Shown here one piece after another: positions 14,366 to 61,644 of a stretch of 64,000 nt of DNA; the stretch's first letter is position 1; each line of letters opens with the position of its first letter. A model generated the notes under the pieces. It worked only from the letters and a program-made list of their open reading frames with translations, was not told the origin of the DNA and did no database searches. Position numbers and translations under genes: made by a program. Source of the DNA: Antedon mediterranea (Eukaryota > Echinodermata > Crinoidea > Comatulida > Antedonidae); assembly GCF_964355755.1 (NCBI RefSeq), contig NC_092670.1, positions 37,745,795 through 37,809,794 on the forward strand, read 5' to 3'.

Positions 14366-14404
14366 CTCCTTGAGCCCTTTTTTTAGATTCACCCTGGCTT
14401 TGCT

Positions 14405-14580
14405 CCCTTCCCTTGCTCTATTTTTGGACACACACCCCTTGCTCTATTTTTGGACACACACCCCTTGCTCTATTTTTGGACACACACCCCTTGCTCTATT
14501 TTTGGACACACACCCCTTGCTCTATTTTTGGACACACACCCCTTGCTCTATTTTTGGACACACACCCCTTGCTCCCGTCC
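14405..14580. repeat. Diverged 27-bp minisatellite, about 7 units
   Basis: Unit cttgctctatttttggacac plus acacccc. It shares the cttgct start and period with the larger array, so it is a diverged and separately amplified derivative. Confidence 0.9.
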
Positions 14581-14850
14581 TGGGGGCACACACTCCTGGT
14601 GCCCTTCCTGAACACACCCCCTTTGCTCCCTTCCTCCTGGATACATTTCTACTTGTTCCCTTCCTGGACAACACCCCTAATCCTATTCTGGAATTAAACA
14701 GTGCACAGTATTACCGAGTATTGAACTGAAGCATGGTGAAGAGTTGCTGCTTGCTTCTGGAGAGTCTGCCTCAGATAGCTCTCATCTTTAATAGCGTACA
14801 TACTGAATTAAAAAAAAGATATGTGGTTAAAATAGGTACCAGTGACATAA

Positions 14851-17503: not shown

Positions 17504-17653
17504 AAGCCTCGTCTTCATCAAACTGAACAAGCCCATATATGGACATGATGATGTCATATCACTACCATATTTGGGCATATCACTACCATATTTGGGCATA
17601 TCACTACTATATTTTTGTTATCAAAGTAGTTTGATAGTGTAGACAGACCTTTA
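17504..17653. mobile_element. Family A MITE, copy A1
   Basis: Right end tttgatagtgtagacagacc is well preserved and the left end diverged. The interior has three tandem catatttgggcatatcacta-type units. Confidence 0.8.
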
Positions 17654-24228: not shown

Positions 24229-27200
24229 ATGTCTGCAAGACGGAGAAAAAGCACAACAAAGGGAACGGAAGACGAACAACCAGCCTCACCACCATCTTCT
24301 CGGAAAGGAAAACATAAATCAACCGGTCAAGAAGGAGCTGGGGGTAAACGCCCATTCAGAAGTTGTGAGAAAGCACGGTGCCCAGCCAAGAAGCCTATCT
24401 GCTTTGCAGGCTCAGAAAGGTAGTTGGTTAAAAAAATTACTAAATTAAATACAGATATATACAATGCTTCTTGTTTGGTATTACTATTATGCAAATGCTA
24501 TGTGAATGTATAGATAAAGTATGTTTCTTAAATATTTGTTTGTTTGTCTGTCCGCAGGTGTGCAGGGGACGGATACACCTCAAGGTGGTACCATTTATCA
24601 GCCGGAGAACACTTCTGTAATGAGTGTTTTGATTACTATTATAGAAGGTACCTAAAGCTCATATTTGGGCATATCACTACCATATTTGGGCATATCACTA
24701 CCATATTTGGGCATATCACTACCATATTTGGGCATTTCACTAACATAATTGGGCACATCACACTTTTTTTGTCAAACTAGTTTGATAGTGTAGACAGAGT
24801 TTTACAGAGGAAAGTGCCATGAAGGACTTTATAAAGTCTGTTATTTTTAAAAGTAAAAACATCATTACTATAGATTCATTTGACTTTTTGTTTCAGCCAT
24901 CGAGATGGCTATAAGCTTATGTCCGCCTGGAAAAGAGAATGGAGTTCGTACGGAAAAACCGAAGCCAATCTGAAAATGTACATGGTGGATGAGGTGATGC
25001 CATACTGGGTTCAGTGTACAGTGTCAGGATGTCTAAAGTGGAGAATGTTGCCAAACGATGTCCAATTGTCAAGGGAACTGATTCAGAAATATTGCTGTGG
25101 AATGGTGCAAGTAGGAAAACAGGTATTGTAGGATTAAAGAGGTAGCATAAAAAAAAAATGTACATACATTACATATCTATCTCTCAAATAACAACATAAT
25201 ACTAAATCAGCTACACAGTCTCCTCAGGATATAATAGGGAACTTTCAACTTTAACCTACGACCTATTAAGAAGGTCGACTAATATGTTTGATAATATAAA
25301 AAAAAATTGAAGATATAGAACAGCCAATAAGATTCTATACTTTGCACAAATAAAGGAAAAGAATATTATGTTCGTAACTGTAACAAAAATATACCAAAAC
25401 TATGTTGAGTAATCGGATAAGGAAACATCCTGGTGTTCGTCCGACAAAGAGGATAAATTACCCCATTAAACCATACCCAACCCTAATCACTGAACCTATA
25501 GCTTTACTCACCATTTTCCTAGAGGGATGTTTGTTTTTAGGTTTTGGCGACCGAAGACCAGATCTCCTCAATAAGGTGATTGTTGTAATCATGTAGGCAT
25601 ATGATACGGTTCATTGGGGTAGTTTATCGAAGCTGGTTTATTGTGGTTCGTTATTGGGGTTATGTCTGGTTTGATGTATGTCATTCGTTAGACCCCTTGT
25701 ATTTGTCCTTGCATATACCAATGAATTCACAGGATACAGTAGGTCATCTGAAATCCAAACCATCCTTGCAATTTTTTTTGTTTCATAATTTGTTTATAGT
25801 CAATAAATAACGATGCATGTAATCAAGAGGAGGACCATCGTGTAGAACAGACGAATGATGAAAACTGGCTGACTCTACTAATGAATCCTCCATTATTAAA
25901 GAACTCGCCAGCCGCTCCATACCTGCAGGAATATTACCCAGACGGTGTCGGACTTAGCGCAACTTGTAAAGTTGCTACTATGGGCGTCAGAGGAGGTAAT
26001 ATAATTTAGCATCTTTATCATGATTCAACCATAAAAGAATCATAGTTTATTTATTTATTCAGGAAAATAAGGTATATTTACAAAATATAGAACAAAACAT
26101 AAGACAAACAAAAAGCTAAAGTTGCTTCTATGGGTGTCTTTCTCATTATCCAACCATAGAAGCATCATAGTATATATATTTATTCAGGCAAATAAGATAA
26201 ATTTACAAAATATAGAACTACAATTTATTATTCTTTATACCGGGTAGCCTCATCAGTCAAAAACTTTTCTCCCAGAGGGCCCAGTGTGTAGTACTATGAT
26301 GAGTTTGTGATAAAACAAAAATCTAAGGAAAAATCATTGCCACTAGCTGCCAAGAAAGTACTATACAGCAGTATTTCCTAGAAAGTACTATACAGCAGTA
26401 CTTCCTAGAAAGTACTATACAGCAGTACTTCCTAGAAAGTACTATACAGCAGTACTTCCTAGAAAGTACTATACAGCAGTACTTCCTAGAAAGTACTATA
26501 CAGCAGTACTTCCTAGAAAGTACTATACAGCAGTACTTCCTAGAAAGTACTATACAGCAGTACTTCCTAGAAAGTACTATACAGCAGTACTTCCCTAGAA
26601 AGTACTATACAGCAGTACTTCCCTAGAAAGTACTATACAGCAGTACTTCCCTAGAAAGTACTATACAGCAGTACTTCCTAGAAAGTACTATACAGCAGTA
26701 CTTCCCTAGAAAGTACTATACAGCAGTACTTCCCTAGAAAGTACTATACAGCAGTACTTCCTAGAAAGTACTATACAGCAGTACTTCCTAGAAAGTACTA
26801 TACAGCATTACTTCCTAGAAAGTACTATACAGCAGTACTTCCTAGAAAGTACTATACAGCAGTACTTCCTAGAAAGTACTATACAGCAGTACTTCCCTAG
26901 AAAGTACTATACAGCAGTACTTCCCTAGAAAGTACTATACAGCAGTACTTCCCTAGAAAGTACTATACAGCAGTACTTCCTTGAAAGTACTATACAGCAG
27001 TACTTCCTAGAAAGTACTATACAGCAGTACTTCCTAGAAAGTACTATACAGCAATACTTCCCTAGAAAGTACTATACAGCAGTACTTCCCAGAAAGTACT
27101 ATACAGCAGTACTTCCTAGAAAGTACTATACAGCAGTACTTCATAGAAAGTACTATACAGCAGTACTTCCTAGAAAGTACTATACAGCAGTACTTCCTAG

Positions 27201-30200
27201 AAAGTACTGTACAGCAGTACTTCCTAGAAAGTACTATACAGCAGTACTTCCTAGAAAGTACTATACAGCAGTACTTCCCTAGAAAGTACTATACAGCAGT
27301 ACTTCCTAGAAAGTACTATACAGCAGTACTTCCTAGAAAGTACTATACAGCAGTACTTCCTAGAAAGTACTATACAGCAGTACTTCCTAGAAAGTACTAT
27401 ACAGCAGTACTTCATAGAAAGTACTATACAGCAGTACTTCCTAGAAAGTACTATACAGCAGTACTTCCTAGAAAGTACTATACAGCAGTACTTCCTAGAA
27501 AGTACTATACAGCAGTACTTCCCTAGAAAGTACTATACAGCAGTACTTCCCTAGAAAGTACTATACAGCAGTACTTCCTAGAAAGTACTATACAGCAGTA
27601 CTTCCTAGAAAGTACTATACAGCAGTATTTCCTAGAAAGTACTATACAGCAGTATTTCCTAGAAAGTACTATACAGCAGTACTTCCCTAGAAAGTACTAT
27701 ACAGCAGTACTTCCCTAGAAAGTACTATACAGCAGTACTTCCTAGAAAGTACTATACAGCAGTACTTCCCTAGAAAGTACTATACAGCAGTACTTCCCTA
27801 GAAAGTACTATACAGCAGTACTTCCTAGAAAGTACTATACAGCAGTACTTCCTAGAAAGTACTATACAGCAGTACTTCCTAGAAAGTACTATACAGCAGT
27901 ACTTCCTAGAAAGTACTATACAGCAGTACTTCCTAGAAAGTACTATACAGCAGTACTTCCTAGAAAGTACTATACAGCAGTACTTCCTAGAAAGTACTAT
28001 ACAGCAGTATTTCCTAGAAAGTACTATACAGCAGTACTTCCCTAGAAAGTACTATACAGCAGTACTTCCCTAGAAAGTACTATACAGCAGTACTTCCTAG
28101 AAAGTACTATACAGCAGTACTTCCCTAGAAAGTACTATACAGCAGTACTTCCCTAGAAAGTACTATACAGCAGTACTTCCCTAGAAAGTACTATACAGCA
28201 GTACTTCCTAGAAAGTACTATACAGCAGTACTTCCTAGAAAGTACTATACAGCAGTACTTCCTAGAAAGTACTATACAGCAATACTTCCTATGTGTTTTC
28301 ATTTTGATTGTCTTTTGTTTATTCGTGTGTTGTACTTTTAAAAATAATATACTGTAATTAAAATTTCTCAAGTTTATATTCACAGCGCAACAAAACTTCC
28401 CCTAAAATACCCATAAATAAAAATATTAATGAAATATTTTTTATTACCTTACTGTATAATATATAATTACCATAAATAAAAATATTAATAAAATATATTT
28501 TATTGCCTTACTGTATATCCTGTGTTATTGGATGTGAACTGACTTCCTTTCGTTATTTTCATTTTTGTTCCCTTTATTTTAGGTCTATCGGATGAACACA
28601 GTGAAGGTATAGTATTGTTTCTGATATCATATCCTCTAATTGCACAATTAAAATTGTTTAATTAGCAAAATTGATAATATACTTGTATATTAGTCTTGTT
28701 TATTTTATTTCATTTATATGTAATTTTACTTTTTATGGACCAGAGATTCCGAAATAAAAGATTGAATGAATGAATTAAACTCTGTCTACACTATCAAACT
28801 AAACAAAAAATATGGTAGGGATTATGCCCAAATATGGTAGTGATATGACATCATCATGTTCATATATGGGCACGTCACTTTTTTTTTGTCACATAAAGTT
28901 TGATAGTGTAGGCAAAGCTTTAGGGTTGTTTATTTTACCTAATGTACCATTTACTGTTGAGTCAAAAAGTCATTCTTTACACACTCATGCTTATATGAGC
29001 ATGCATAATCACATGACACTGGAAAACAAAAGGTCGCTAAAATATGCGCTCAGTTTAAGACTTCAGTATTGTACTTTTGTCTTTGCTTGTAAAATAATAC
29101 AATTTCTGTTTGTAGATCTGCATCCATATTTTCAACCGTTTTACCAGCCAGAAGAAAATGGCAAAGCATTGTGTGTACGACCAGATGTTATGGAGTACGA
29201 TGAAGTTCAGGAATTTCCAGAATTTGCACGTGAACAACAAATGTACCTTGGACTTAGAAACCTTGCCCTAGCCTTATGGAATACAAACTATAAGGTTGGT
29301 TGGGTGTTCGGTGAAGAAATTTAGTATCAAAACGACACGGATTGTACTGAGAAGGTTTTAAACTATTTGGTTGGGTGTTCGGTGAAGAAATTTAGTATCA
29401 AAACGACACAGATTGTACTGAGAAGGTTTTAAACTATTTGATTGGGTGTTCGACGGAGAAATTCAATATCAAAATGACCTGAATTCTACTGGGAAGGTTT
29501 TAAACTATTTGGTTGGGTGTTCGACGGAGAAATTTAGTATCAAAATGACTTGAATTGTACTGGAAAGGTTTTAAACTATTTGGTTGGGTGTTCGGCGGAG
29601 AAATTTAGTATAAGAATGACTTGAATTGTACTGAGAAGGTTTTAACTATTTGGTTGGGTGTTCGACGGAGAAATTTAGTATCAAAATGAATTGAATTGTA
29701 CTGGAAAGGTTTTAAACTATTTGGTTGGGTGTTCGGCGGAGAAATTTAGTATAAGAATGACTTGAATTGTACTGGGAAGGTTTTAACTATTTGATTGGGT
29801 GTTCGACGGAGAAATTTAGTATCAAAATGACTTGAATTGTATTGGAAAGGTTTTAAACTATTTGGTTGGGTGTTCGGCGGAGAAATTTAGTATAAGAATG
29901 ACTTGAATTGTACTGAGAAGGTTTTAACTATTTGGTTGGGTGTTCGACGGAGAAATTTAGTATCAAAATGACTTGAATTGTACTGGAAAGGTTTTAAACT
30001 ATTTGGTTGGGTGTTCGGCGGAGAAATTTAGTATAAGAATGACTTGAATTGTACTGGGAAGGTTTTAACTATTTGGTTGGGTGTTTCGGCAGAGAAATTT
30101 AGTATCAAAATGACCTGAATTGTACTGGAAAGGTTTTAAACTATTTGGTTTGGGTATTCGGCGGAGAAATTTAGTATAACAATGACTTGAATTGTACTGG

Positions 30201-33200
30201 GAAGGTTTTAAACTGCATTTGAAAAAACCACCAGGAGGGGTTGTGTGAGGTATCAACATGAGTGTACTGAGAAGGTTTTAAACTACTTGACTGGTTTCTA
30301 CTCTGGGTCAGGTTTTTCTTCTAGAGATATTATATCTACTTCTAATCTATTATTTATTGTTTTTTTACAGAAAGTTGTTACAGTAGAAATGTGTGTTGAG
30401 CATTTGATTGTGCGTGGTCTTGTACGAATAGTATGCTCTAGATACCTCAAAGTCTTCCTAGCATTCTTAACCAAGAAAGGTTTGGTGAACTCGGGACTAA
30501 TGCAGAACCCTCATCTCATTAAAGACATTATAGCAGAAAACTCTAAGCCTGTAAGACTCTTATTACTGTAATATTTTTAAGAATAATCGTTTCATGATAT
30601 GAATATGGTATGAGTGGTCGGGTGGTTAAGACAGTGGAACCGTAATTACGTAGCCATAACATCAATAAGGGTTTAAGGCTCACTCACTCCATGGTTCTGA
30701 TAGTAGAACAAGTCTTCTTGGACAAGGACTGTAAACCATAGGTCCAGTGTACACATCTAGCTCATGTGCGTTTTAAAGAACCTAGTACATCTTTTGAGAC
30801 GAGTAGGGTGTTACCCCGATGTACTAGTACACACACAGCCACTGATCATATCTGGGCCCTCTGGGAGACCAGTCTTTGATGAGAGCGCATTGTCTTGTAG
30901 TAATTTATAGTCAGTAAAGTTTATTTTTTTTAAGTTTGTACATAATTTTATAGTACAGTACTGTTGTTTGGAATTTGTACTAATTTTTTATATTTTATTT
31001 CAGGATTCTGTGATAATAATTGGCGCAGGACCATCGGGCCTGGCAGCTGGAAGGCAACTTCAGAACTTTGGGGCAAATGTCACTATGCTCGAATCTAGAA
31101 ATCGCATCGGGGGCAGAATATGGGATGATAAAAGTTTAGGGGTGTGTGTTGGGAAAGGTGCTCAGATAGTCAATGGGTGCATTAATAACCCTATTGCACT
31201 GATGTGTGAACAGGTATTTGTAATTCTCTTATTTAAAATATTAATAAATAAATGATATATATATAAAAGGCAGCTCAATCCATTTATTTTATATATAATA
31301 ATAAAACATTAAACAATTTGCTCATAATGGGTCTAAAGCTCTGCCTGCACTATAAACTAGTTTGTAGTGTTAAATGTGCCTAAATATGGTAGTGATATGC
31401 TCAAATATGGTAATGATATGATCATCATGTCCATATATGGGCACAACACATTTTGTTGTCACATAAAATTTGATAGTATAGACAGAGCTTTACAAGGCAT
31501 TGCCTGAATTAGCTACCCTACCCCAAAAACTATATACACATTCCCTCAATAATTTATGGAAGTCCAGCAGAAACAAACATACCAGTCTTTGTGTTTATGT
31601 AACAACATTCTGAGTGAATTGTTATAACTTACTTGTAAATCATGTACAGGTGGTATAGGTTTTTTATATTTACACACCGGCGCCTCACAGGGTGGTCTCC
31701 CTTCCGATACAATTTATATTTATTTATTATTGTTTCTATTAGTTTCTTTGCTGTTTTTAAACCCCAAATAAGTATATACACTTTCCTCAATGATTCATGG
31801 AATGAAGGAAGTCCAGCAGAAACAAACATAGTAGTGTTATGTATAAATTATTATAACATGCTTGTAAATCATGTATAGTGTTCAATATTTTAGACAGAGG
31901 CGAAAAGGTGAAACCACCTTGTGAGGCACCTCTGATACAATTTATTGATCTTTCTATTAGTTTCTCTGCAGAAACATCAATCAAATCTTCCAGAATTTAA
32001 CATGAAATAGTTTTACATAATAAAACAATAAAGCATTTTCACTATTGGAAAGAAAATCAATCAAAAAATAAAAATTACACTTAAAAATTTGGCTAAGATA
32101 TCCTCAATAATTGAGTTAGCGTTTATAAGTAGAACATCTCTTGAACCATAAATTACTGAAATAAAAACTTGTAGTAAAAGAATTTATATAATATTTTGTA
32201 TCAAAAGAGCATTTCCTAAAATATTTGATCAATTAATATTACATAAGTTCTGAAGATAATATGTGCTATACTGTGTTGTACGCAAATGAGTGTAAGCATA
32301 TAGCCAAGTAAATGTAGTGTATTGTTTTTATAGGCTGGTATTAAAATGCGAAAGATGCATATAAGATGCGACCTCGTAGAAGAGGATGGATCTGTGACCG
32401 ATACGACCGTTGATAAACGTGTTGATTTCCATTTTAACGCAATGCTTGATGCTATTGCAGAGTGGCGGAGAGACAATGAAAATAAACTAGATGACTTATC
32501 TCTCGCTAGTAAGAATTATAAGAGTCATTAAAGATGTATTGTCCCATAAAAAATTAATTTTTTACATTTTTGTTGTTGAATATGCCATTTTATTATCGCA
32601 TCATAGTTATCTACTTTAAAAAAAATTGAATTGAAAAAAAATTTATTTAAAAAAACTGTAATTTATAGCAAAAAATAGTCAAATTAGCTGCCATCCAATG
32701 GGTTTTTGGTTGAATTTTACCATTTATTTATATGGGAAAACATTTTTGCAGAAGGTATTAACTTTATTAAAACTTCAAAATGGTCTGATTTTATTAATCT
32801 TCATTTTTCATGTTTTGGGGGACAATACATCTTTAATAAATTAAAACTAAAAAAAAATTCCTGACCTTGGGACAGCACCAATAAAATAAAGTCTTAAATA
32901 GCTACTGCTAACCAAGCTTGATTTATTGAGAGATTTCGATTTGCGATCACCAACTATTTACCAAGGTCAGGTCAATCGGTGCATTGTTGGTCATTGTGTG
33001 GGGTATGAGGAAACGCGTCCCAATATCCCCGTTTGCGCATAGTTGAATTAACATGACATAGTTTGGTCGAAAGCTCATTATTATCAATTGATTGCTGTAA
33101 GCCCTCAACACCTACCTGACCAACAAACCCACCTCAATCCCATAAGTTGCTTCTGCCTTCTTGCAACTTTAACATGACTATGTGTTTTGATTTTTTAAAT

Positions 33201-36200
33201 TCTATGTTGTAGAAAAATTACAAGAAATGCATGAAACATTTATTGAAGAAACTAGTTTGAAATTCACAGCAAAGGAGGAGCGCTTGTTCCAATTCCACAT
33301 AAGTAATTTAGAGTATGCATGCGGATGTGATCTATCAAAGGTAAACAAGCATCTTAAAAGTAGAACCTATTATAAATTGTCCCCTTAATAGGGGTGTCCC
33401 ATAAATAGAGTTTGAGTATTTAGTCCTTAAACAAAATACTATTGCTCCTTGTTCATTGGAAAAGTGACCCCCCCCCCCCCCCCCAAAGCCTGGTTTCCAT
33501 TAAAATCGCTACAGCGTTTCCATTAAAATCGCTACACGCGCAAATGTCGTCGACGCAATCGGGAAGGCTCCCCGATTCATCTCAGTCAAATCGGCAAAGT
33601 TCAACCATGTTCAACTTTGTCGGCGATGAATCGTATACGCGTACCAAAGAATATTTAGCACTCGCGTACTAGATCCCCGATAAATTCTAGCGTTTCCATA
33701 GAATCGCTAGGCTCTGTCGTGTAGCGATTTTATGTAAACCAGGCTTTAGGGATTTTCCAAAGGATGTGTTTAAAGCTATGTCTACACTATCAAACTAATT
33801 TGACAAAAATGTGTGATGTGGCCAAATATAGTAGTGACATGCCCAAATATGGTACTGATATGACATTATGTCCATATATTGGCAAATCACATTAAGTTTG
33901 ATAGTGTAGACAGAGCTTTACTGTATGTGATGTACTGTTCAATAACGTTTGTGCCCTAATGGCTTTTAACATGCAGTTCATACATTGTATACAGATCTCC
34001 AGTATATCATTTAATTAATTGGTACATTGTTATTGTTATTGATGTTTTTTATTTATGTGGATATTTTTCTAGGTTTCATCTCTGTACTGGGATCAAAATG
34101 AGAACTTTGCCCAGTTTGCAGGTGACCACACCCTTATTGAAGATGGTTATATGGCTGTTATCAATAAATTAGGTGATGGCCTCGATGTAAGACTTAATAC
34201 AGCGGTAAAGTCCATTGACTATACAGGAAAGGATGTCATAGTACAGACGGATGATGGGAAGACGTTTAAAGCACAGAAGGTAAGCATCTTAAGCTCTGTC
34301 TATACTATTGAACTGGTTTGACAAAAAAAGTGTGATGTGCCAAAATATGGTGGTGATGTGACATCATTATGTCCATATATGGGCACACAAGTTTGATAGT
34401 GTAGACAGAGCTTTAGGCCTTAAAAAATTATTAAGTTGCCTGACCGACCCAAATTTTGATCAAATCTAGAAAAAATGAGAAGTAATTTTTGAAACTTGAA
34501 ATTGCATGTATGAGTGAGTTTTATTTTTTAAATAATTAAAAAAAAAAAATTTTAAACAATGTTTTACGAGGGTGGTCCATCCAGCTGAAGCTGATCATTA
34601 GGGACCCTAAAGAAAAACAATATAACATTACATTTTCTAGGAATTATTTATATCATTACCACAAATTCAGCAAAAAAAAGGGTGGCCTACTGGCCTGTTT
34701 ATTCTTTCTTTTTTGGTCAGATTAACGCAAACTTAAGAATTTAAGAAAGGTGAAGAGAATCTCATTTAAGAATTCTTGGTTAAAATTATCTGAAAATAAC
34801 GTTTGCTTATTTCTGTTTATTAGAAAACAACATTTCTTAAAAAATAATAATTGCATATCAATTGCATTTCATAGGTTCTTGTTACCGTTCCACTGTCGAT
34901 ACTTAAAAGGAATCTAATCAGTTTTAAACCAGCTCTACCAACTCGAAAGCAAGAAGCTATTAATTGCCTAGGTGCTGGAATTATTGAAAAGGTAAAAGAA
35001 AAACGAATTTAAAAGATGGCTAAATTATTTTTGTGATGTATTTTGTGTTGATAAAATTAGTTGAGGTGAGAATATGGTGATAAGAATGGATGTTGCTATG
35101 CTAACAGTAATATAAATTTGACTAGTCTGTTAAAAATTAACTTAAGCTCTGCCTACACTATCAAAATAGTTTGAAAAAAAAAGTATGATGTGCCCAAATA
35201 AATGACATTGATATGCCAACAAGTGATATGACATCATCATGTCCATATATGGGCACATCAAATTTTTCATAAAGTTTGGTAGTGTAGACAGAGCTTTAGA
35301 GTAAAAATGTTTTTTAGACGGTTTTTAACTATGACGTTTTTTCTTCTTCGAGATTTTATGTTACAAACTTGTTTTGTTTCTTATTGCTTCATTTAGATTG
35401 GGCTTCAATTTCCATCACGTTTTTGGAGTAAAAAAGTAATCGCAACAGATTACTTTGGGCACATTCCGCCAGCAGTTGATAAAAGAGGAATGTTTTCTGT
35501 TTTTTATGACATGACACCACCGGTAAGATATCTAGATTATTGTTTAAAATGTATTTTAATTTCCCTTTTTATTTTATGAACTGAAATATCTGATATCATA
35601 GACTATTTTTTTTCGTTTTTCTTTGGGTATTATTTCAATAAAGATAGAATTCGTACGGCAGTCTTAAGAGACAAATCATTAGAAATTTTAACATTAAGAT
35701 CGTTACAAACAAATAAACCAAGACCACTTCCAATTTCAGTTTGTCTATTTTTATGAAGAAAAGAATAATTATTTAAAAATGTTTTTTGCATTGTATTGTT
35801 TAACCACGTCTCAGACAACCCAATAATAGAGGTGTATTCAAAGAACTTTTAAGTTTAAGTTTTTTTTAAAAAGTATTCAAGGGAGGAATCAAATAAAGAA
35901 AGACTTACAAGGACATGTAGACACTAACACAATAACAAACAATCCTGCCATAAACAGACAAAAATGTGGAAACATTGTGGAAAGCGTAATGTCGGAAGAC
36001 CGAAAACGTTAAGAAGAAGAAGAAGAGTTCATTAGGCAAGCTTCGAACGTTGAGATGGAAGAGTGAAAGTTTATTACTAAAAGATGTAAAATTGATCAAT
36101 ATTAAAATATGAACAGTCATCTAGCATACATGATAAAGCTGATAAAGATAGAGATAATTGATAATGATCTGTGTAATCATTTATAATGCTCCGTGTATTA

Positions 36201-37446
36201 TATAGAGTAAAAGTTTGAAATTAAACAATATTTTGTTTGATGTTAGAGGAGCTTTGAGAATGAGCATGTGTTGATGACGGTAGTTAGCGGCGAAGCTGTA
36301 CAACTAGTACAATCAAAGACTGACCAAGAGGTTATAGATGAATGTCTAAGGTGCTTACGAAACATGTTCCCAGATGAGGTATGTAGGCAAACCACTGATC
36401 TAGGCTAACCAATATGTTGTCGACAAAACAATATGATAAAAAAAATTGAAAAAAATAAAAAAACCTTTTTGTTTTGTTTGGGCCAGTGAGTATGCATGTA
36501 GCGCAGTGTGTTGGAAGTTGGATTACTGATCATGAGTTACTTATATCCTAAGGCAGGACACTTACGTTTGCCTCTCTCCACCCAGGTGTATAATGGGTAG
36601 AACAAGACACATTTTGCGCTGATTACTAGGTGCATTATGGCAGTATAATATTTCCATACGTGTTTGATCCAATGGTCAGGATAATAATTTGAAGCGCTTA
36701 GAAGCAATAAGCGTTATATAGGAACGAAAATTATTATTGTTATCAATGCAAAGGAGCCAATCCATTTTGATGTTCATTGATGGCAGAAAAGAGCTAATGC
36801 CATTTTAGTAGTAGATGATAATTAATTCAAGCTTGTTTTTATTTTTAGTAATAAGAGAGAATGAATGTTTTTAACCTCGACATGTTATGGTTGCCCCATT
36901 AATGGCTGAGGATGTCTCTTTTTTAGGATGTTCCAAACCCAACAAATTTCTTTGTAACCCATTGGCATAAGGATCCTCATGCTTTGATGGCGTACAGCTA
37001 CATTGGTATAGGAGCTAGTGGAGAAGCCTACGAGATCATTGCAGAATCCATAAACAATAAGGTGTTCTTTGCTGGAGAGGTAAGCACCAATTTATTTTAT
37101 TATTGATGTCACCTGTATGCAAATTATTTTTTGATAATAACTTTGTTTATCCTTGTAGGCAACTAACCAGCATTTTCCACATCAACTTATTCTATTATTA
37201 TTTTAAGTCACCTGTATGCAAATTATTTTATTCTAATAAACTTGTTTATCTTTGTAGGCAACTAACCAGCATTTTCCACATCAACTTATTCTATAATTAT
37301 TATTATTATTTGAAGTCACCTGTATGCAAATTATTTTATTCTAATAAACTTGTTTATCTTTGTAGGCAACTAATCGGCATTTTCCACAGACAGTAACAGG
37401 TGCGTATCTGAGTGGCATCAGAGAAGCAGCGAAAATCTGTACTTGA
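24229..37446 (+). CDS. KDM1B: Lysine-specific histone demethylase 1B (LSD2), 16 coding exons, 804 aa
   Basis: Removes mono- and dimethyl groups from histone H3 lysine 4 by FAD-dependent amine oxidation in the nucleus. Exons: 24229-24419, 24558-24647, 24897-25122, 25800-25995, 28583-28606, 29116-29294, 30371-30550, 31004-31213, 32334-32508, 33213-33340, 34073-34279, 34875-34991, 35397-35522, 36247-36378, 36927-37079, 37366-37446; junction phases close without a break. Basic N-terminus, then a Cys/His zinc finger ending [12 protein letters not shown] (about 45-93), a CW zinc finger ([13 protein letters not shown]; about 129-170), a SWIRM region (PYFQPFYQP to LVNSGL; about 243-345), and the amine oxidase with Rossmann motif GAGPSG (369-374). 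Lys641 in GAGIIEK corresponds to the conserved catalytic lysine of the family. The C-terminus [16 protein letters not shown] binds flavin. Human KDM1B is 822 aa. Exon 5 is a 24-bp microexon. Start chosen at the first ATG in frame; no upstream ATG in frame is seen. Confidence 0.96.
24653..24803. mobile_element. Family A MITE, copy A2, with internal tandem units
   Basis: Five tandem units of catatttgggcatatcacta type, then the normal right end gtttgatagtgtagacagag. The left end is reduced to taaagctc and begins 5 bp past the KDM1B exon 2 donor. Confidence 0.85.
26340..28290. repeat. 27-bp minisatellite, about 70 units, KDM1B intron 4
   Basis: Unit tagaaagtactatacagcag plus tacttcc (27 bp; a 28-bp variant has one extra C). 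Each unit contains the inverted pair AAGTACT ... AGTACTT around a 7-base loop, so either strand can form a chain of small hairpins. Sits between exon 4 and microexon 5. Confidence 0.98.
28774..28921. mobile_element. Family A MITE, copy A3
   Basis: Full length: left end actctgtctacactatcaaa, right end gtttgatagtgtaggcaaag. The inner arms atgcccaaatatgg and catatatgggcac are also inverted. KDM1B intron 5. Confidence 0.9.
29295..30215. repeat. 71-bp minisatellite, about 13 units, starting at a splice donor
   Basis: Unit: ggttgggtgttcggcggaga, aatttagtat, aagaatgacttgaattgtac, tgggaaggttttaaactatt. First unit starts 3 bp after the KDM1B exon 6 donor; the donor GGTTGGTTGGG is therefore part of the repeat. 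Two alternating subtypes (cggcgg..taagaatg and cgacgg..tcaaaatg) suggest amplification as dimers. Confidence 0.95.
30605..30865 (+). mobile_element. tRNA-derived SINE, copy 1
   Basis: Head gagtggtcgggtggttaaga (A box) followed by a degenerate B box. The body contains catggttctgatagtagaac and gtccagtgtacacatctagc. The same body is at 46555-46725 in reverse. KDM1B intron 7. Confidence 0.75.
31334..31491. mobile_element. Family A MITE, copy A4
   Basis: Ends taaagctctgcctgcactat and ttgatagtatagacagagct. KDM1B intron 8. Confidence 0.85.
31537..31975. repeat. Diverged tandem duplication of about 235 bp
   Basis: aagtccagcagaaacaaaca, cttgtaaatcatgta, gatacaattta and ctattagtttct occur in the same order twice in KDM1B intron 8. 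Confidence 0.7.
32528..32836. mobile_element. Family D MITE, copy D2 (best-preserved)
   Basis: 309 bp, ends ttaaagatgtattgtccc and gggacaatacatctttaa. It starts 20 bp after the KDM1B exon 9 donor. The interior is AT-rich without coding capacity. Relatives lie at 19522, 47142, 49596, 50240 and 61008. Confidence 0.85.
33467..33484. repeat. Poly-C tract (18 C)
   Basis: A run of 18 cytosines directly before the family C element. Confidence 0.9.
33485..33748. mobile_element. Family C MITE
   Basis: 264 bp with ends aaagcctggtttccattaaa and tatgtaaaccaggcttta, and inner inverted motifs atcgctaca / tgtagcgat. It is the only clear copy of this family in the window. KDM1B intron 10. Confidence 0.85.
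33770..33920. mobile_element. Family A MITE, copy A5
   Basis: Ends taaagctatgtctacactat and atagtgtagacagagcttta. KDM1B intron 10, 22 bp from the family C element. Confidence 0.88.
34289..34414. mobile_element. Family A MITE, copy A6
   Basis: Begins ttaagctctgtctatactat only 10 bp after the KDM1B exon 11 donor; right end gatagtgtagacagagcttt. Confidence 0.88.
35142..35298. mobile_element. Family A MITE, copy A7
   Basis: Ends ttaagctctgcctacactat and ggtagtgtagacagagcttt. KDM1B intron 12. Confidence 0.88.
35626..36115 (-). pseudogene. LINE endonuclease fragments, interrupted
   Basis: Minus strand: about 36075-36020 encodes [13 protein letters not shown], the start of an apurinic-type LINE endonuclease. 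About 35830-35650 encodes [10 protein letters not shown] ... [10 protein letters not shown] from the same domain. The stretch between is out of frame and not homologous, and the polymerase is absent. Lies in KDM1B intron 13, antisense. Confidence 0.75.
36485..36740 (+). mobile_element. SINE-like repeat
   Basis: Contains gtgtataatgggtagaac, ctaggtgcattatggcagta and the tail gaagcgcttagaagcaataa, gcgttatataggaac, then ATT triplets. Typical SINE organisation; the head is too diverged to assign to a tRNA. KDM1B intron 14. Confidence 0.6.
37109..37390 (+). repeat. Triplicated acceptor and start of KDM1B last exon
   Basis: Units start with tcacctgtatgcaaattatt at 37109, 37208 and 37316. Each contains a polypyrimidine-like tract, ttgtag and gcaacta, the beginning of the last exon. 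Copies 1 and 2 keep usable AG acceptors (after 37158 and 37257) but then run into stop codons. Copy 3 is the real terminal exon. Confidence 0.92.
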
Positions 37447-37483
37447 AATTTTGTGAGTGTCATAAAATATGGTAAACAACTCA

Positions 37484-38118
37484 AATAAATATATCTGGTA
37501 TATAAATTGAGACAAGATTTCAATATGGCTGGCCATTTTTTCTTTCCAAAATGCAATTGTTTCTATGATAGATTTCTTGGTGGATTTAACTCGATTCCTA
37601 ACTTCAAATTTCTTGGTAGATTAAAATTGGTTTCTTGTAAAATTAAATAGACTTGAATAAGTCAATTTTGGGGTCTTTCAAAATTTATAAACTCTAAAAT
37701 TGTTCAAATTATGTACAAAATAAATTTGAGATTCATTTCTCATATCTTTTCCCTTCCCATTGTACTTTTAATAAAGAAATTGTTTTTTTCAATGAATTTT
37801 GTTTTATATTTAATAATCAATCTAACATATTTAATATTTTTTTTAGCAATGTATTATTTTTAATTTTTTTGAACATCATTTCTATTTTTCGAATTAATTT
37901 GGTTTTTAATGAAGTTTTGCGTAAAATTAGTTAAAAATGTTGAAATAATAACAGTTATTTAGCTTTGAATAGGAGTACAGTATTATATATTTTTATCAAT
38001 TTTTAAATGTAACTGTAGGTAAAAAATGTTGTTAATTTAATATTTACATACTACACTGTACTGTAGTAGCCATTAAATTGTATTAAATGAAATGAACAAT
38101 TGTTAAAGGCAAAATAAA
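37484..38118 (+). terminator. KDM1B: KDM1B 3' UTR with candidate poly(A) signals
   Basis: AATAAA words occur at 37484-37489 and 38113-38118 after the stop codon, with others between. Which one is used cannot be told from sequence. Confidence 0.45.
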
Positions 38119-39678: not shown

Positions 39679-41835
39679 TCATTTATTTATCAGAATTTTC
39701 ATTTTACTGTACTGTTCTTCGAGATCGTGTACTCGTGTTTGGTGATTAGTATCAATATCCGCTTGTTCCTCAGACAATCTTTCGGTAAATGCTTTCCATT
39801 CATTTTCCCGCTGGATTCGATTTTCCTTTAATGGGTCGTCCTTCGAAAGAAAATTTAAGTAGATTAGGATAAGCAAATAATGAGCAAGTTATGGTTATAT
39901 AAAGAGCTGTTCTGCTTTCGCAAACAAAATGGGAAAATTGGGGCTTATTAAAGTTCTGTCCACACTATCAAACTTTGTGACAAAATGTGATGTACCCATA
40001 ATATGGACATGTCATATCACTACCATATTTGGGTACATCACAATTTTTTGTCAACTAGTTTGATAAGTGTAGACAGAGACTTTAATAATCGGTAAAAAAC
40101 ATTTGCATTTCCATTGTGTAGACGACAATACTTTACCTGCATGTGTTGTTCCTCAGTTGCAGCAATTTTCTCACAGATCTTAATAGTTCCAAGCACTGAA
40201 AATACATTTGATTTCATTATATCTATTTATGTTGTTTTCCTGCTAGACATTGATTTGGCTTATTATATTGGTTTAAGCAAACATTTTGGCACACATGGCA
40301 TGTCATACCTATACTTGAGCTGGAATTTTTTTGAGAGCAATATCAAAACGTTATGATCTGCTGGTAGCACTCGTAATGAATATTAACAACATGAAAAAGA
40401 CAATTAATAGCTTGGGATAGGTCTATTCTCCTGTGTGATGTGTTATGGCTAGTGATGCTATTTCAGTATGATAATTAATATATAAAGATATGAAATGTAC
40501 TGTAAATAAAATGGAATCATTTCAGAATGTTACATTACTGGTATTTCATTATATTATGCACTGCAGTAACTGCTGTAACAATAAGAGTGAATAAAGCTCT
40601 GTCTACACTATTAAACTAGTTTGACAAAAAAGGTGTGATGTGCCTAAATATGGTAGTGATATGACATCATCATGTCAATACTGTATATGGGCACATCACA
40701 TTTTGATGCACCTCTCCTGGGGGTTGTATAGTGGGTCATACAATTGACAAGTGCATTATTTTGTTATTTGATTTCGAAAAAGTAATATTTGCAACAAGTA
40801 ATGTTCTTTACAAGTTTCTTGAATGGTCTTTAAGTGTGTCTCCATGAAATCCTCACACTGTGGAAGTATTCGATCGTTTAATTCATTTGTGTGTTCTTGA
40901 ATCTTTCTTAATTTTTTCATTTCTCGGTTACTGCGTCTACCTTCAAACTCCTTGACAAAATAGCGAATTTCACCTTGAATTACTGGTCTATGATCCAGTA
41001 ATCTAGCCTGAATTTCACCAATATCTGAAAAAACAATTAGTACTTATGAATCAATGTCACAGAGAGGCATATGAACGTTTAATTTTTAATATAATTTAAT
41101 ATATCTAAACATCATGAATACACACGAGGGTTATGCTGGTTTTATATTTAATTTTGTGTTCTTTATTTAGATATCGACACTCCATACAAAATACTGCGGG
41201 TGCTATTGTTGATTTTGGTCCTTGTTGTACCAAAAGTTGATTTTATCGCCACCAAAATAACCGCGACCGAATAGTTTCAAACGCGACCGATATAATCGTA
41301 AACCATACTACTAGCCCTACGTTTAGATCCTTTTGTTACAGCTCCTGTAGCCAAATTGCACTGCAATCGAGTGCCCGGGTAGGTGCTATTGTTGATTTTG
41401 GTCCTTGTTGTACCAAAAGTTGATTTTATCGCCACCAAAATAACCGCGAACGAATAGTTTCAAACGCGACCGATATAATCGTAAACCATACTACTAGCTA
41501 GCCCTACGTTTAGATCCTTTTGTTACAGCTCCTGTAGCCAAATTGCACTGCAATCGAGTGCCCGGGTGCTATTGTTGATTTTGGTCCTTGTTGTACCAAA
41601 AGTTGATTTTATCGCCACCAAAATAACCGCGACCGAATAATTTCAAACGCGACCGATATCGTAAACCATACTAGCCCTACGTTTAGATCCTTTTGTTACA
41701 GCTCCTGTACGTAGCCAAACCTGGCTTGTTCCAAGTATACAATACTTTTATATTTAGATAGGTATTCAATGCGATTCGTCATGTTACATAGTTATTATTG
41801 GTTGAACATTAGTTACCTTTCAATGTGTTTTCCAT
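39679..41835 (-). CDS. BLOC1S5: BLOC-1 complex subunit 5 (Muted), 4 coding exons, 150 aa
   Basis: Subunit of the octameric BLOC-1 complex, which acts on endosomes in biogenesis of lysosome-related organelles. Exons in transcript order: 41835-41817, 41024-40812, 40195-40137, 39840-39679 (TGA). Phases close and all introns are GT-AG. The start MENTLK leads into the diagnostic family segment DIGEIQARLLDHRPVIQGEI, then RYFVKEFEGRRSNRE and coiled coil to the end. Human BLOC1S5 is 187 aa; the difference is mainly a short N-terminus here, since the human leader is poorly conserved. A first exon further upstream cannot be excluded. Divergent from PDIA6, with start codons 848 bp apart. Confidence 0.93.
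39948..40084. mobile_element. Family A MITE, copy A9
   Basis: Ends ttaaagttctgtccacacta and gataagtgtagacagagact. BLOC1S5 intron 3. Confidence 0.85.
40592..40706. mobile_element. Family A MITE, copy A10, right end lost
   Basis: Left end taaagctctgtctacactat present; homology stops after gggcacatcacattt. Confidence 0.8.
41199..41720. repeat. Three tandem copies of a 180-190 bp unit, BLOC1S5 intron 1
   Basis: Each unit runs ggtgctattgttgattttgg, ccttgttgtaccaaaagttg, ataaccgcga, cgcgaccgatat, ctacgtttagatccttttgt, caaattgcactgcaatcgag. A short fourth piece lies at 42090-42140, upstream of the gene. Confidence 0.95.
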
Positions 41836-45600: not shown

Positions 45601-48507
45601 TTACCCCCTATCTAGGGAGTCGCACATCCATCAGCCGACAGTGGGTTTCCTGCTATTGTGACTCCTTGGCCAAATAAATAAAGGTATTTAAAAAAGGAAT
45701 TTAATTATTTCTTCACAGAAAAAAGGCAGTGGAAAAGACGTCGTAGAATTGACAGACGCCAACTTTGATGAGTTAGTTTTGGGCAGTGAGGACCACTGGC
45801 TTGTGGAGTTCTTTGCACCATGGTGTGGTCACTGCAAGAATTTAGCCCCTGAATGGGAAAGCGCTGCCACCGAGCTTAAAGGAAAGGTCAAGCTTGGAGC
45901 ACTTGATTCTACCGTCCACACAATAGTGGCTGGAAAGTATGGAGTAAGTACAACAACAGATGTACAATTTATAAGTCTTATTACTGTATTATTATTAAGC
46001 TCTGTGATGTGCCCATATATGGACATGATGATGTCATATCACTACCCATACTTGGTCATATCACTACCATATTTGGGCACATCACATTTTTTTTGTCAAA
46101 CTAGTTTAATAGTGAAGACATAGCTTTAGAGATATTGTAGAGATAATAGCACTAAAGGTTGGTTGTTAACATCCTTGCTTACTAATTCCAGGGTCATTTG
46201 TTCAAATCCTCGGTATGGTATTTTTAGATTCTTAAAACAAACTACCCATAATCTATATACAGTAATAAGCATTAACACCTATTTTTGGAGAAGTTTCTTC
46301 ATTACCAAAACTTTTATCCAATTATTCTTTGAATTTAAGTCATAAATAGTAATTTTTTTTTTCTTATAATTAATAGATACGTGGATATCCCACTATTAAG
46401 TATTTCGCTCATGGCAGAAAGAATGGTGAAGCAGAGGACTTCACAGGAGGTCGTACTTCTGGTGACATTGTCAACTGGGCTATGGATAAATTTGCAGAGA
46501 CTATGCCACCTCCAGAACTTTTAGAGGTAAGGAGATGACTACAGTTTCTGGTTTATGGTGTCTCTTTCGGGCTAGAGCTAGATGTGTACACTGGACCTAC
46601 GGTTTATAGTCCTTATCCGAGAAGACTCGTTCTACCACCAGAACCATGGACCGAGTGAGCATCGAACCACTGCCGATGTTATGGATCCGTAATTACGGTT
46701 TTACTGTCTTAACCGCTCGGTCAATCTGTCTCCCCCTCTCCCTTCTTCAATTTTAGAAATTAAAATGCAGAAGAAAGGACATTAGCTCAAGTTCAGCACT
46801 TGTACCAAAAGTTTATTATCCTATTTGAAATCTGAATCTGCCACTGGTTTTGTGCTATGATCAGCACACTGGGAAAACACATCCAGCCTAAAAGCCGATC
46901 TGAAATTATATTTTTATAACTGTTTTTGTGTTTCTTTAGATTACCAGCCAAGAAGTTATGGACAAGGCCACAGCCAACCCTCTGTGCGTGATTTCCGTCC
47001 TGCCCGACATCTTGGACACCGGAGCAGCCGGAAGAAATAAGTATTTGGATATCTTAAGAGACGTGGCTGATCAATATAAAAAGAAAGGATGGGGGTACGG
47101 TTTGATATTATCTTTCTTTAGTCTTATCAAATATTTATTCATTAAAGATATATTGTCCCCATAAAACCTGAAAAATGAAGATTAATAAAATCAGAATTGG
47201 AATAGGTCATTTTGAGGTTGTAATAAAGTTATTCACTTCTGTAGGAAAAAATTTTTTTTATTTATAAAAAGACAAAAGAAATGGTTGATATTTGTATCAG
47301 TGAATTATTATTATCTGTGAAATGAATGTCTCTTGTCTCTTACAGGTGGGTGTGGACCTCTCCAGGCCAGCAGACAGCTTTAGAAGACTCGTTGGGTATG
47401 GGAGGCTTCGGTTACCCAGCTCTGGCTATTGTTAATGTTCGCAAACAAAAATTCTCAATTTTCAAAGGATCATTTGATAGAGATGGAATATATGACTTTT
47501 TAAGGTAAAAACTCTTTCTTTTTTAGTATTTTAATTTGTTATTGTATACGTTGGAACCCCTGTAAAGGTATACAAATCAAAATGTTTTTACTGCAATATA
47601 TAAATAATATGATTTTTAATTCAAAGTAGAAGCTTATGAGTCTATGATTACTAAAAATAACACATTTAAAAAAATCAACAATTTTTTAAAGCAAAATTCA
47701 AAAGTGTGGTTTTAGTTTTCATCTTCATTTTGTCGAATCAAAATTATTCCACTGCAGTTACTGCAGTAACTACATGTTTTTACTGCAATATCATATCTTT
47801 TTTATTCAATGTAGAATTTTATGAGTATGATTACTCAAAAACTCTCAACAATAAATAATTGTCTAAAGAGTAAACAAATTGTTGTTGTGGTCCTTTTAAA
47901 AATCAACGTATTGTTTATATCTATTATGTATTAACAAGTATTTGTTTATGTTTTGTTATTGCAGATCTATTTCAATGGGTAGAGGATCTACTGATAGTCT
48001 ACGTAAATTAGCAGATATTAAAGCTAGAGATCCATGGGATGGCAAAGATGGAGAAGTAAGTATTTGCCCAAATATGGTAGTGATACTGTATCCCCAAATA
48101 TGGTAGTGATATGCCCAATTATGATAGTGATATGCCCAAGTATAGTATTGATATACCCAAATATGATAGTGATATGCCCAATTATGATAGTGATATGCCC
48201 AAATATGGTAGTGATATGCTCAAATATGGTAGTGATATGACATCATGTCCATATATGGGCACATCACATTTTTTTTGTCACAAAGTTTAATCGTGTAGAC
48301 AGAGCTTTACAGTAGCTACCACCAGGGTGTGGTTGAGTTTGGTGTTTTATATTTTTATTACTGTAGTGAACAAATTTGATTTGAAATGCGGATTTATTAA
48401 GTTTTGTAATTAAAATCTTTTAAAAATTGTTTCCATAGTTACCGGAAGAAGAGGATATTGACCTTAGCGATTTTGACATGGATGACGAGGGGAAGGATGA
48501 GTTGTAA
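42684..48507 (+). CDS. PDIA6: Protein disulfide-isomerase A6 (P5), 11 coding exons, 450 aa
   Basis: ER-lumen thiol-disulfide oxidoreductase that forms and rearranges disulfides in secretory proteins. Exons: 42684-42717, 43164-43308, 43490-43547, 44408-44534, 45177-45316, 45719-45943, 46377-46526, 46940-47094, 47346-47504, 47965-48055, 48439-48507; phases close. A hydrophobic signal segment VVLVVVA lies near residues 13-19. Two thioredoxin domains carry WCGHC active sites at 60-64 and 203-207. A glycine-serine linker (about 150-168) separates them. A non-catalytic b-type domain follows, then an acidic tail with [21 protein letters not shown] at the end is the ER-retrieval signal. Human PDIA6 is 440 aa with the same domain order. 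An alternative in-frame ATG at 42702 would still leave the signal segment. TXNDC5 is excluded because only two active-site domains are present. Confidence 0.97.
44018..44113. repeat. Near-perfect 46-bp-arm hairpin, PDIA6 intron 3
   Basis: Arms centred on a single T at about 44067. The inner 26 bp (gagagcttgatttattcttat and on to acaag) are perfectly complementary, the outer 20 bp nearly so. Confidence 0.9.
44167..44305. mobile_element. Family A MITE, copy A11
   Basis: Ends aagctctgtctacactatca and gatattgtagacagagctta; close to consensus. PDIA6 intron 3. Confidence 0.9.
45362..45412 (+). mobile_element. tRNA-derived SINE head fragment
   Basis: gagtggccaagccgttaaga then cagtggaacca, the head of the SINE at 30605, broken off by other sequence. 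PDIA6 intron 5. Confidence 0.55.
45995..46128. mobile_element. Family A MITE, copy A12
   Basis: Begins ttaagctctgtgatgtgccc (outer left arm shortened), ends aatagtgaagacatagcttt. Starts about 50 bp after the PDIA6 exon 6 donor. Confidence 0.85.
46555..46725 (-). mobile_element. tRNA-derived SINE, copy 3
   Basis: Minus strand head accgagcggttaagacagta, B box tggttcgatgctc, and the same body as 30605-30865. Best-preserved head of the family. PDIA6 intron 7. Confidence 0.8.
47142..47300. mobile_element. Family D MITE, copy D3 (partial)
   Basis: Left end attaaagatatattgtcccc followed by gaaaaatgaagattaataaa; right end not found. PDIA6 intron 8, close after the donor. Confidence 0.7.
48059..48309. 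mobile_element. Family A MITE, copy A13, with about 9 internal 21-bp units
   Basis: Tandem gatatgcccaaatatggtag units with point variants replace the left half; the right end tcgtgtagacagagctttac is normal. The array begins directly at the PDIA6 exon 10 donor (gtaagtatttgcccaaatat). Confidence 0.9.
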
Positions 48508-53700: not shown

Positions 53701-56700
53701 GGTAACGTATTTATTTTTTATTTTGGCCGAGGGTTGGTTGCAAAAATGATAATTTAATTTATTTTTCAACAATTTAAAATGTACTGATGTTCTTTCAAAT
53801 TGTTTTTAGTTTGAAGGCGGTATCCTACCATCGGCTATGTTCATTGATGGAAGTGTTAAGATCTCAGAAAAGACAAACAAGAAACCAGCTCTGACTGAGG
53901 TGAGTACATTTAAATTCAACCATTGACTTCCAAAACAAGAAACTATAGGAATTTTGCTTAAGTCAAGATGATTAAGAAGTGTAAAACTTTATTTATCATA
54001 GCAGTTCTTTCTATCCTATCTAAAGCTCTTTGTACACTATCAAACTAGTTTGACAAAAAAATGGGATGTGCCCTTATATGGGAGTGGTATGCCCAAATAT
54101 GGTAGTGATATGACATCTCCATATATGGGCACATCAAACTTTTTTGTTACAGAGTTTGATAGTGTAGACAAGGCTTAAAGGACTTAAAGCTCTGTCTACA
54201 CTATCAAACAATGTGAGAAAAAATGAAATGAAATGCCCATATATGTACATGATGTCATATCACCACCATATTTGTGCATATCATGCCCATATAAGGGCAC
54301 ATCACACTTTTTTTTCAGACTAGTTTGATAGTGTAAGCAGAGCTTAAGATAATTTTTGCTAAGCATGTTTGATAAGCATGATACCTATTCTTTAGAAAAT
54401 CTGGTTATTATTTTATACATATTTTTTTTTAAATTTAGGAACAAGTTGTGATGGCTGGTAACTATATTCTGAGCCGAAAGACCACACAGAACGTGCGCAA
54501 TGCTTACTTGGTTGTTCTTGCCACCAAAGCCCTCTCCATTAACAAAGTAAGTGACGTAAACAAAATCTACATTTGAACTCCATCACCTTGATGAATTAGG
54601 TGAATTACGCAAACAAGAACATCTTTGAGAGGTGTTGCATATAAATATAATGTATAAATCCAAAGGCAAATTACTGAAAAAATCTCAATAGAGATACAAA
54701 TAAAATAAGCACAAAGCTAAATCAAAACAATAAAGTAAAACGGCCAGAAAAATTAGCAGAGATTTTGTGCAACACTAGCCTTTCATCAGTGCAAGTGAGA
54801 GTACTTAGGACAAGTAGAGAGTAAATATAATATACATACATATATATATTAACACATTAGGCAAAGAACATTAATTCTAAACCGCCCGGTGATATACTGA
54901 AATTTAATTAATTAATTTGAAACCATAAAGATGAGGAAATCTGTGAGAATGAGAAAAAGTCGTCCCAACATATATACATATATATATCTGTCAATCTGAC
55001 AATTAACAATATTTTCTGACCATATGTTTTCGATCACTGCTACCACTGCCAGCAAAAAAAAGTAGAAAGAAAGAAGAATAAAGAAAAGTACAAAATGAAT
55101 TTAAAGTAATTTATTGTGAATCATTTCTGTTCTTATTTGTAGTTCTTCGTTCCAGTGGGCTTTAGCCTCGCAAGCAGCATAACAGTTTCCCCAGCACAGC
55201 CTAAGATTATAGTAAGTGTTCATTTCTGAATATTTAGCCTTCATTTTGTCCTAGTTTTTCCCCTTTTTTATTCTAACTGGCTTAAAACTACTTTTATTTA
55301 TGTATATACTATCAAAGTTTATGTGACAAAAAAATGATGTGCCCATATATGGACATGATGATGTCATATCACTACCATATTTGAGCATATCACTACCATA
55401 TTTGGGCATATCACACTTTTTTTTGTCAAACTAGTGTAGACCGAGCTTAATAAGTTACGTCATTTGAATCCTGTTATCGAGAGAAAGATTTTTTTTGCCT
55501 ATGAGGAAGATTTGACCTATATGATTAATTCTTACAGGTACAAGTTACTGACCTTATGACTGGATCTATTGGCCAGCTGTCCGTTTCAACCAAATCAGCT
55601 GTTCGCAAATCGGACAGGTCTAAGCTGTTCACTGAGAAGAAACTTGCAGGAACAGCTGATAAGTAAGAAGCATTTTATTTTTTATTTTTGGGGTTGGGGT
55701 AAAATATTGTATTGTTTGATTTTGTGTAGCCACAAAACTGCTCATTGTCTTTAAGTTGTCTCGGAAGCAGATTTTGAATGCTTAAACATGATTTTATTTT
55801 TTAAATAGAACAAAGTTTGACTTGAACTTCCTGGAAAGCAAACCCGCCCCTGGCTTTTATGATGTCACATTGGTTGGTAAACTTGCAAAGCCAGACAGCA
55901 AATTCATTGGGTTAGCAGATGGCAGCATTACTGTTAAGGTTGTGACAGAGGTCATAGTTGAAGGGGTGGAGCTTCTTGTGATTGACAGGGATCAGAGTAT
56001 TGCAACCAAGACTGTGAAGTAATTTTAATATTTAATTTTGTTTAACAGTACAGTAGTTGTACTTTATAATTTCCATACATTGGTTTGCCATTTGTGCAAC
56101 ACACAGGTAATTTTTCATAAAGATAGCAGTCGACAATTTGGAAGAATAATGTTATTCTTATTCTTTATTGCCAAAAACATAAAAAAACAACAACTATAAA
56201 GTTAGGAAGTTTAGTGTTACCCTAAATCCCTATGGCTAAGAGCCAGTGTCACCATTAATCCCTATGACTCAGAGCAAGTGTTACCCTTTATCCCTATTGC
56301 TAAGAACCAGTGTTACCCTTAATCCGTATGGCTTAGAGCCAGTGTTACCCTTAATCCGTATGGCTTAGAGCCAGTGTCACCCTTAATCCATATGACTCTG
56401 AGTCAGTGTTACCATTAATCTCTATTGCTAAGAGCCAGTTACCCTTTATCCCTATTGCTAAGAGCCAGTGTTACCCTTAATCCGTATGGCTTAGAGCCAG
56501 TGTCACCCTTAATCCATATGACTCGGAGCCAGTTAATCTTTTGATTAATTTTAAATATATAACTGTTTTTTCGCAGTGTACAGCACCCAAGGAAGGTGGC
56601 ATCCCCTATAGATGCTGATTACCATCAGAACGTCATGCTTAAGTTCGTTCTCAAAGACAAAGCAACCAACAAACCAATGCCAGTCCATCAGGTAAAAATC

Positions 56701-61483: not shown

Positions 61484-61644
61484 TTAAGCTCTGTCTATAC
61501 TATCAAACTTTATGTGATAAGAAAATGTGATGTGCCCATATATGAACATGATGTCATATCACTACCATATTTGGGTATATCACTACCATATTTGGGTATA
61601 TAACTACCATATTTAGCCACATCACTAGTGTAGAGAGAGCTTTA
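61484..61644. mobile_element. Family A MITE, copy A18
   Basis: Left end ttaagctctgtctatactat, three tandem taccatatttgggtatatca-type units, shortened right end agtgtagagagagcttta. Confidence 0.85.

Follow-up and report, generated by a model that had tools for sequence, protein, structure and literature searches.

The last 3' splice site of a KDM1B (LSD2) gene, together with the start of its terminal exon, is present in three tandem copies in the 64,000-nucleotide stretch of Antedon mediterranea DNA that we analysed (the window). The pattern of the copies suggests, with a probability of about 0.8, a two-step and effectively neutral tandem duplication over the last acceptor of a working gene, of which the most distal acceptor would be the productive one. 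As KDM1B biology the array is probably ordinary. It shows, however, how minisatellite-like duplication could give decoy terminal exons, and it represents a clean natural experiment on splice choice among near-identical acceptors in series.

The KDM1B gene and its product

The original prediction identified the gene as KDM1B, which is borne out by the domains of the product and by its match to LSD2. If the third acceptor is used, the reading frame is unbroken from ATG to TGA, and all introns of the 15-exon model are GT-AG. The product matches LSD2 of PDB 4fwe over residues 28-791 (E 6.5e-293, 977 bits) and contains a stretch of 17 residues that is identical in LSD2. Four LSD2 sequences score 967-977 bits, compared to 270 bits for the best LSD1. 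Pfam detects zf-CW, SWIRM (29.2 bits, just above the cut-off of 28.6) and Amino_oxidase, the latter extending through residue 790. The presence of zf-CW, SWIRM and amine-oxidase domains and the near end-to-end similarity thus assign the protein to LSD2 rather than LSD1, and apart from the array the predicted gene is intact. Its relevant features are:

24229..37446, plus strand: KDM1B (LSD2) coding region, 15 exons, 792 aa (exon model and translation, PDB 4fwe match, Pfam)
36927..37079, plus strand: exon 14, the penultimate exon, ending ...VFFAGE at the donor GAG/gtaagc (exon model, PDB LSD2 match)
37366..37446, plus strand: coding part of the true last exon, 26 residues and then the stop (LSD2 match)
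37484..37489, plus strand: AATAAA 3' of the true stop, likely the poly(A) signal of the normal mRNA, as judged from its sequence

Anatomy of the array

Within 37080-37446, the 3' part of the last intron occurs three times head to tail, each time with a TTGTAG acceptor and 23 bases of coding sequence. The array is hence a tandem duplication that spans a splice acceptor. A triplication with periods of 99 and 108 bp had been proposed, and both TRF (score 428, threshold 30) and the alignment of the copies agree with it, the spacing at the acceptor being 99 and 108 bases. Given the length and the identity of the repeats, the triplication itself is beyond chance. Three units can be delimited:

37085..37179, plus strand: unit 1, with intron copy 1, whose acceptor ends at 37158; 37159-37181 is exon-start copy 1, including a CA common to unit 2
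37180..37278, plus strand: unit 2, with the junction CA, an intron-start relic, intron copy 2 and an acceptor ending at 37257; exon-start copy 2 is 37258-37280, including a CA common to unit 3
37279..37386, plus strand: unit 3, with the junction CA, the third intron copy, longer by 9 bases, an acceptor ending at 37365 and the true last-exon start

The intron-start sequence at 37085 is seen again at 37180 (17/20) and 37279 (16/20), and each unit therefore corresponds to the intron minus its first 5 bases, followed by 23 exon bases. Measured at the unit joints (37085, 37180, 37279 and then the CA at 37387), the spacing is 95, 99 and 108. The joint sits on a CA that the start of the intron (gtaagCACC) has in common with the exon (TTTCCACAG), so that each of the first two stubs is continued by an intron-start relic (CATCAACTTATTCTATTATT vs CACCAATTTATTTTATTATT, 17/20). 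Since the sequence past a stub is this relic, the P-H change originally described is a duplication junction and no point substitution in the exon. The repeated coding part amounts to 23 bases rather than about 28. The N-R to N-Q change is a true substitution (CGG to CAG): the real exon has the arginine of PDB 4fwe LSD2 and the stubs have glutamine, as would be expected if the third copy is under selection. Overall, the last intron, about 79 bases long if counted from the donor to acceptor 1, has grown to 286 bases as counted to acceptor 3, and the conserved KDM1B tail is reached from the third copy only.

Exons after acceptors 1, 2 and 3 start at 37159, 37258 and 37366, and each is in phase 0 relative to the donor after 37079. 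The exon model is thus in line with the upstream same-phase TTGTAG acceptors of the original prediction (coding from 37159 and 37258), and translation upholds its early stops and loss of the tail. From acceptor 3 the stop is reached at 37444-37446 after 26 codons. The upstream copies show the following features:

37204..37206, plus strand: in-frame TAA from acceptor 1, after 15 codons; predicted product 781 aa (translation)
37235..37240, plus strand: AATAAA in intron copy 2, 29 bases past the first stop; possible poly(A) signal
37294..37296, plus strand: in-frame TAA from acceptor 2, after 12 codons; predicted product 778 aa (translation)
37343..37348, plus strand: AATAAA in intron copy 3, 47 bases past the second stop

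Both predicted shorter products are without the conserved TVTGAYLSG tail which, from the amine-oxidase family, we take to be flavin-contacting.

Duplication history

Intron copies 2 and 3 agree in 77 of 78 aligned bases and differ by one 9-base indel. Between the first and second intron copies, 64 of the 73 aligned bases are identical, leaving aside 6 gap columns, which corresponds to a divergence of 12%. The exon starts pair in another way, with 23/23 identical bases between copies 1 and 2 and 21/23 between copies 2 and 3. Intron 2 consequently groups with intron 3 but exon-start 2 with exon-start 1, which points to two ordered duplications. Such a two-step origin is the simplest account of the copy pattern, part of which gene conversion could mimic.

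In a first step, a tandem duplication would have started at intron base 6 and reached about base 23 of the exon, with the 2-base CA match at the joint; a decoy acceptor followed by a 23-base exon stub would thus have come to lie upstream of the real acceptor. Exon stub 1, the junction and intron 2 would have been duplicated later, perhaps by unequal exchange or slippage, to yield three acceptors. The function of KDM1B would have been kept by enough transcripts joining the donor at 37079 to acceptor 3 and the exon from 37366; acceptor 3 alone would lead into genuine exon sequence and on to the regular 3' end.

The placement of the array at a splice site is plausible by chance because such arrays are dense here. 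A base-rate sample of 112 kb, made up of sixteen 7-kb stretches on 11 contigs and representing unannotated DNA and not exon boundaries, contains 12 arrays with periods of 50-400. This is roughly one every 9 kb, and together the arrays take up 8,607 bases. Of the 16 stretches, 9 carry such arrays, with three in one stretch, and the other 7 carry none. The window contains 6 arrays of this period range, two of them inside the 13.2-kb KDM1B gene. A random 299-bp array in KDM1B covers at least one of the 28 splice sites with a probability of 0.47, although purifying selection on broken exons should lower this chance in practice. A duplication that spares the last acceptor and its exon can be tolerable.

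Strength and choice of the acceptors

Acceptors were scored with a weight matrix derived from only the 13 other acceptors of KDM1B, which allows a coarse ranking. Acceptor 1 scores 5.0 and exceeds 5 of these 13, while acceptors 2 and 3 score 7.3 each and exceed 6. The window has 3,371 AGs on the plus strand; 5.3% of them reach the score of acceptor 1 and 2.5% that of acceptors 2 and 3. A plain AAG at 37206-37207 (exon start 37208) also scores 3.7 on this coarse matrix. As their scores lie within the range of the KDM1B acceptors, the upstream acceptors look usable. The first two acceptors may be spliced at some level, and the 781- and 778-aa proteins without the tail would result. Use of the stubs as cassette exons is unlikely: the best GT after the stubs (37214 and 37322) lies beyond the in-frame stop and scores 5.1, compared to 6.0-11.4 for the 14 KDM1B donors, on a matrix trained on the same 14 donors.

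Acceptors 2 and 3 are identical across 61 bases, 53 upstream and 8 downstream. Any preference between them must therefore be set farther off, for example by the distance to the donor or by the exon past base 8. The sequence past acceptor 3 has 47% GC, is purine-rich and contains four GAR motifs, compared to 12-19% GC and no such motif past the stubs; we infer that this context could be the cue for splice choice. The dependence of a distal preference on such a cue counts against the neutral reading.

An alternative is that the decoys are leaky and noticeably lower the output of functional KDM1B, which would make the duplication mildly harmful or expression-tuning. This possibility overlaps with the neutral two-step account, as it shares the same origin and differs only in the extent to which the upstream acceptors are used. 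It draws on the identity of acceptors 2 and 3 and on acceptor 1 being in the normal range. Moreover, Reed and Maniatis reportedly observed in 1986 that duplicated 3' splice sites compete in vitro and that exon sequence and proximity decide. However, the first duplication is old, and the 12% divergence between introns 1 and 2 implies that it has been tolerated for long. We regard substantial leakage as possible but as falling short of an even chance.

Possible function of the extra copies

The upstream copies each hold an acceptor, an in-frame stop and a possible poly(A) signal, which is a weak criterion given how frequent AATAAA is by chance. Because each of the two stops (37206 and 37296) is followed by AATAAA, a mini terminal exon can be envisaged, and in-frame stops with AATAAA, which also fit short terminal exons, count against the neutral reading as well. 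The array could accordingly be a regulated three-way switch of the last exon, in which mini terminal exons consisting of acceptor, stub, stop and AATAAA yield KDM1B without its flavin-site tail as an off-switch or a dominant negative. If this were true, splicing would turn a histone demethylase off. In-phase acceptors that score within the KDM1B range, stops after 15 and 12 codons and AATAAA 29 and 47 bases beyond them would agree with this idea, and a stop in the last exon would escape exon-junction-dependent decay. On the other hand, AATAAA is present in 11% of 80-nt pieces of the KDM1B introns, intron copies 2 and 3 probably have theirs in common by descent, the stubs show no sign of constraint and the fold is unremarkable. 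We therefore consider a regulated switch unlikely.

Within the array, the copies differ in 2 of 23 exonic and 9 of 73 intronic bases (Fisher p = 1.0), and this comparison, which is of low power, gives no indication that the extra copies are under selection. The fold of 37070-37450, computed for one sequence, is no better than that of its shuffles (z = 0.60), 73 out of 100 of which do equally well, and this leaves an RNA structure that hides the decoys unsupported. Acceptor 1 still has both its AG and its pyrimidine tract despite a divergence of about 12%. The lasting of all three acceptors is expected without selection, yet it is compatible with use. Of the original reading as a decoy-acceptor or alternative terminal exon array, the decoy anatomy stands, with scores in the range of the gene's acceptors, whereas a function as alternative terminal exon array appears to have no positive support.

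Copies elsewhere and the assembly

A DNA search of the 354-Mb assembly, which skips simple repeats and sees withheld stretches as N, found the whole stretch once. One other match beyond the locus, 70 bases with 78% identity on C4, apparently lies in AT-rich DNA around an AAT/TAATA repeat, and a dispersed repeat as source of the unit is thus unsupported. Although a single assembly was examined, an assembly or haplotype artefact is very improbable because the copies differ by substitutions and the 9-base indel, in a pattern suggesting two ordered events, and because the whole stretch is found once.

KDM1B itself was also found once. The genome search with its tail gave 11 matches, two of which are its own exons. 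The match at C7:10763045 (48%), which runs unbroken across the intron position, is presumably the tail of KDM1A, and the remaining eight are weaker. Neither the DNA search nor the tail search of the assembly found a retrocopy recording the used junction, a missing match being no proof of absence. In a viral collection, one of 27 pattern-matching stretches encoded a relative: positions 3001-3225 of L019 (IMGVR_UViG_3300021341_000078, 63.6 kb) encode a 75-aa stretch that is 51% identical to the KDM1B tail. This contig may be viral or misassigned cellular DNA, and the relative is too distant to bear on the array.

Comparison with known systems

A literature search on duplicated acceptors found little. 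According to the accessible part of PMC3443670, tandem genomic duplication of exonic AGGT can create a new intron. In both cases a short segment within a gene is duplicated in tandem and extra splice sites result, but here an existing 3' splice site and exon start are duplicated and no intron is gained. The available portion of PMC1876488 describes exons with alternative 3' splice sites that arise from constitutive exons, the new sites being formed by mutation; no word beginning with 'duplicat' was found in the main text as far as it was available. As in the present array, the ancestral acceptor faces competition from a new one, whereas the competing sites here are near-identical copies. Arrays of mutually exclusive exons, as outlined in the accessible part of PMC6071210, arise from tandem duplication of whole exons, often with competing RNA structures. 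The duplication likewise takes in exon and adjacent intron, but here it copies only 23 bases of a terminal exon rather than a whole internal exon, and the fold is not notable.

Other repeats in the window

A second array at a KDM1B splice site is found at 29296-30214, where 13 units of 71 bp start from base 2 of intron 5 (exon 5 ends at 29294). The sequence at the end of exon 5 reads AAACTATAAG/GTTGGTTGGG. Directly before TTGG/TTGA, 8 of the 12 units after the first carry AAACTAT and 4 carry TAACTAT. Intron 4 of KDM1B contains a satellite of 71 units of 27 bp (26353-28291), both strands of which have long open frames.

A 21-bp unit (CATATCACTACCATATTTGGG, also reversed) forms short arrays at 17555-17614, 24660-24761, 48065-48239, 55365-55414 and 61556-61614. 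Sequence related to this unit also occurs near 33780-33920 between the inverted ends CTATCAAACT...AGTTTGATAG, resembling a small transposable element. Other large tandem arrays of this repeat-rich region are located at 12518-14628 (27/54/81-bp family) and 41197-41709 (183-bp x 2.9).
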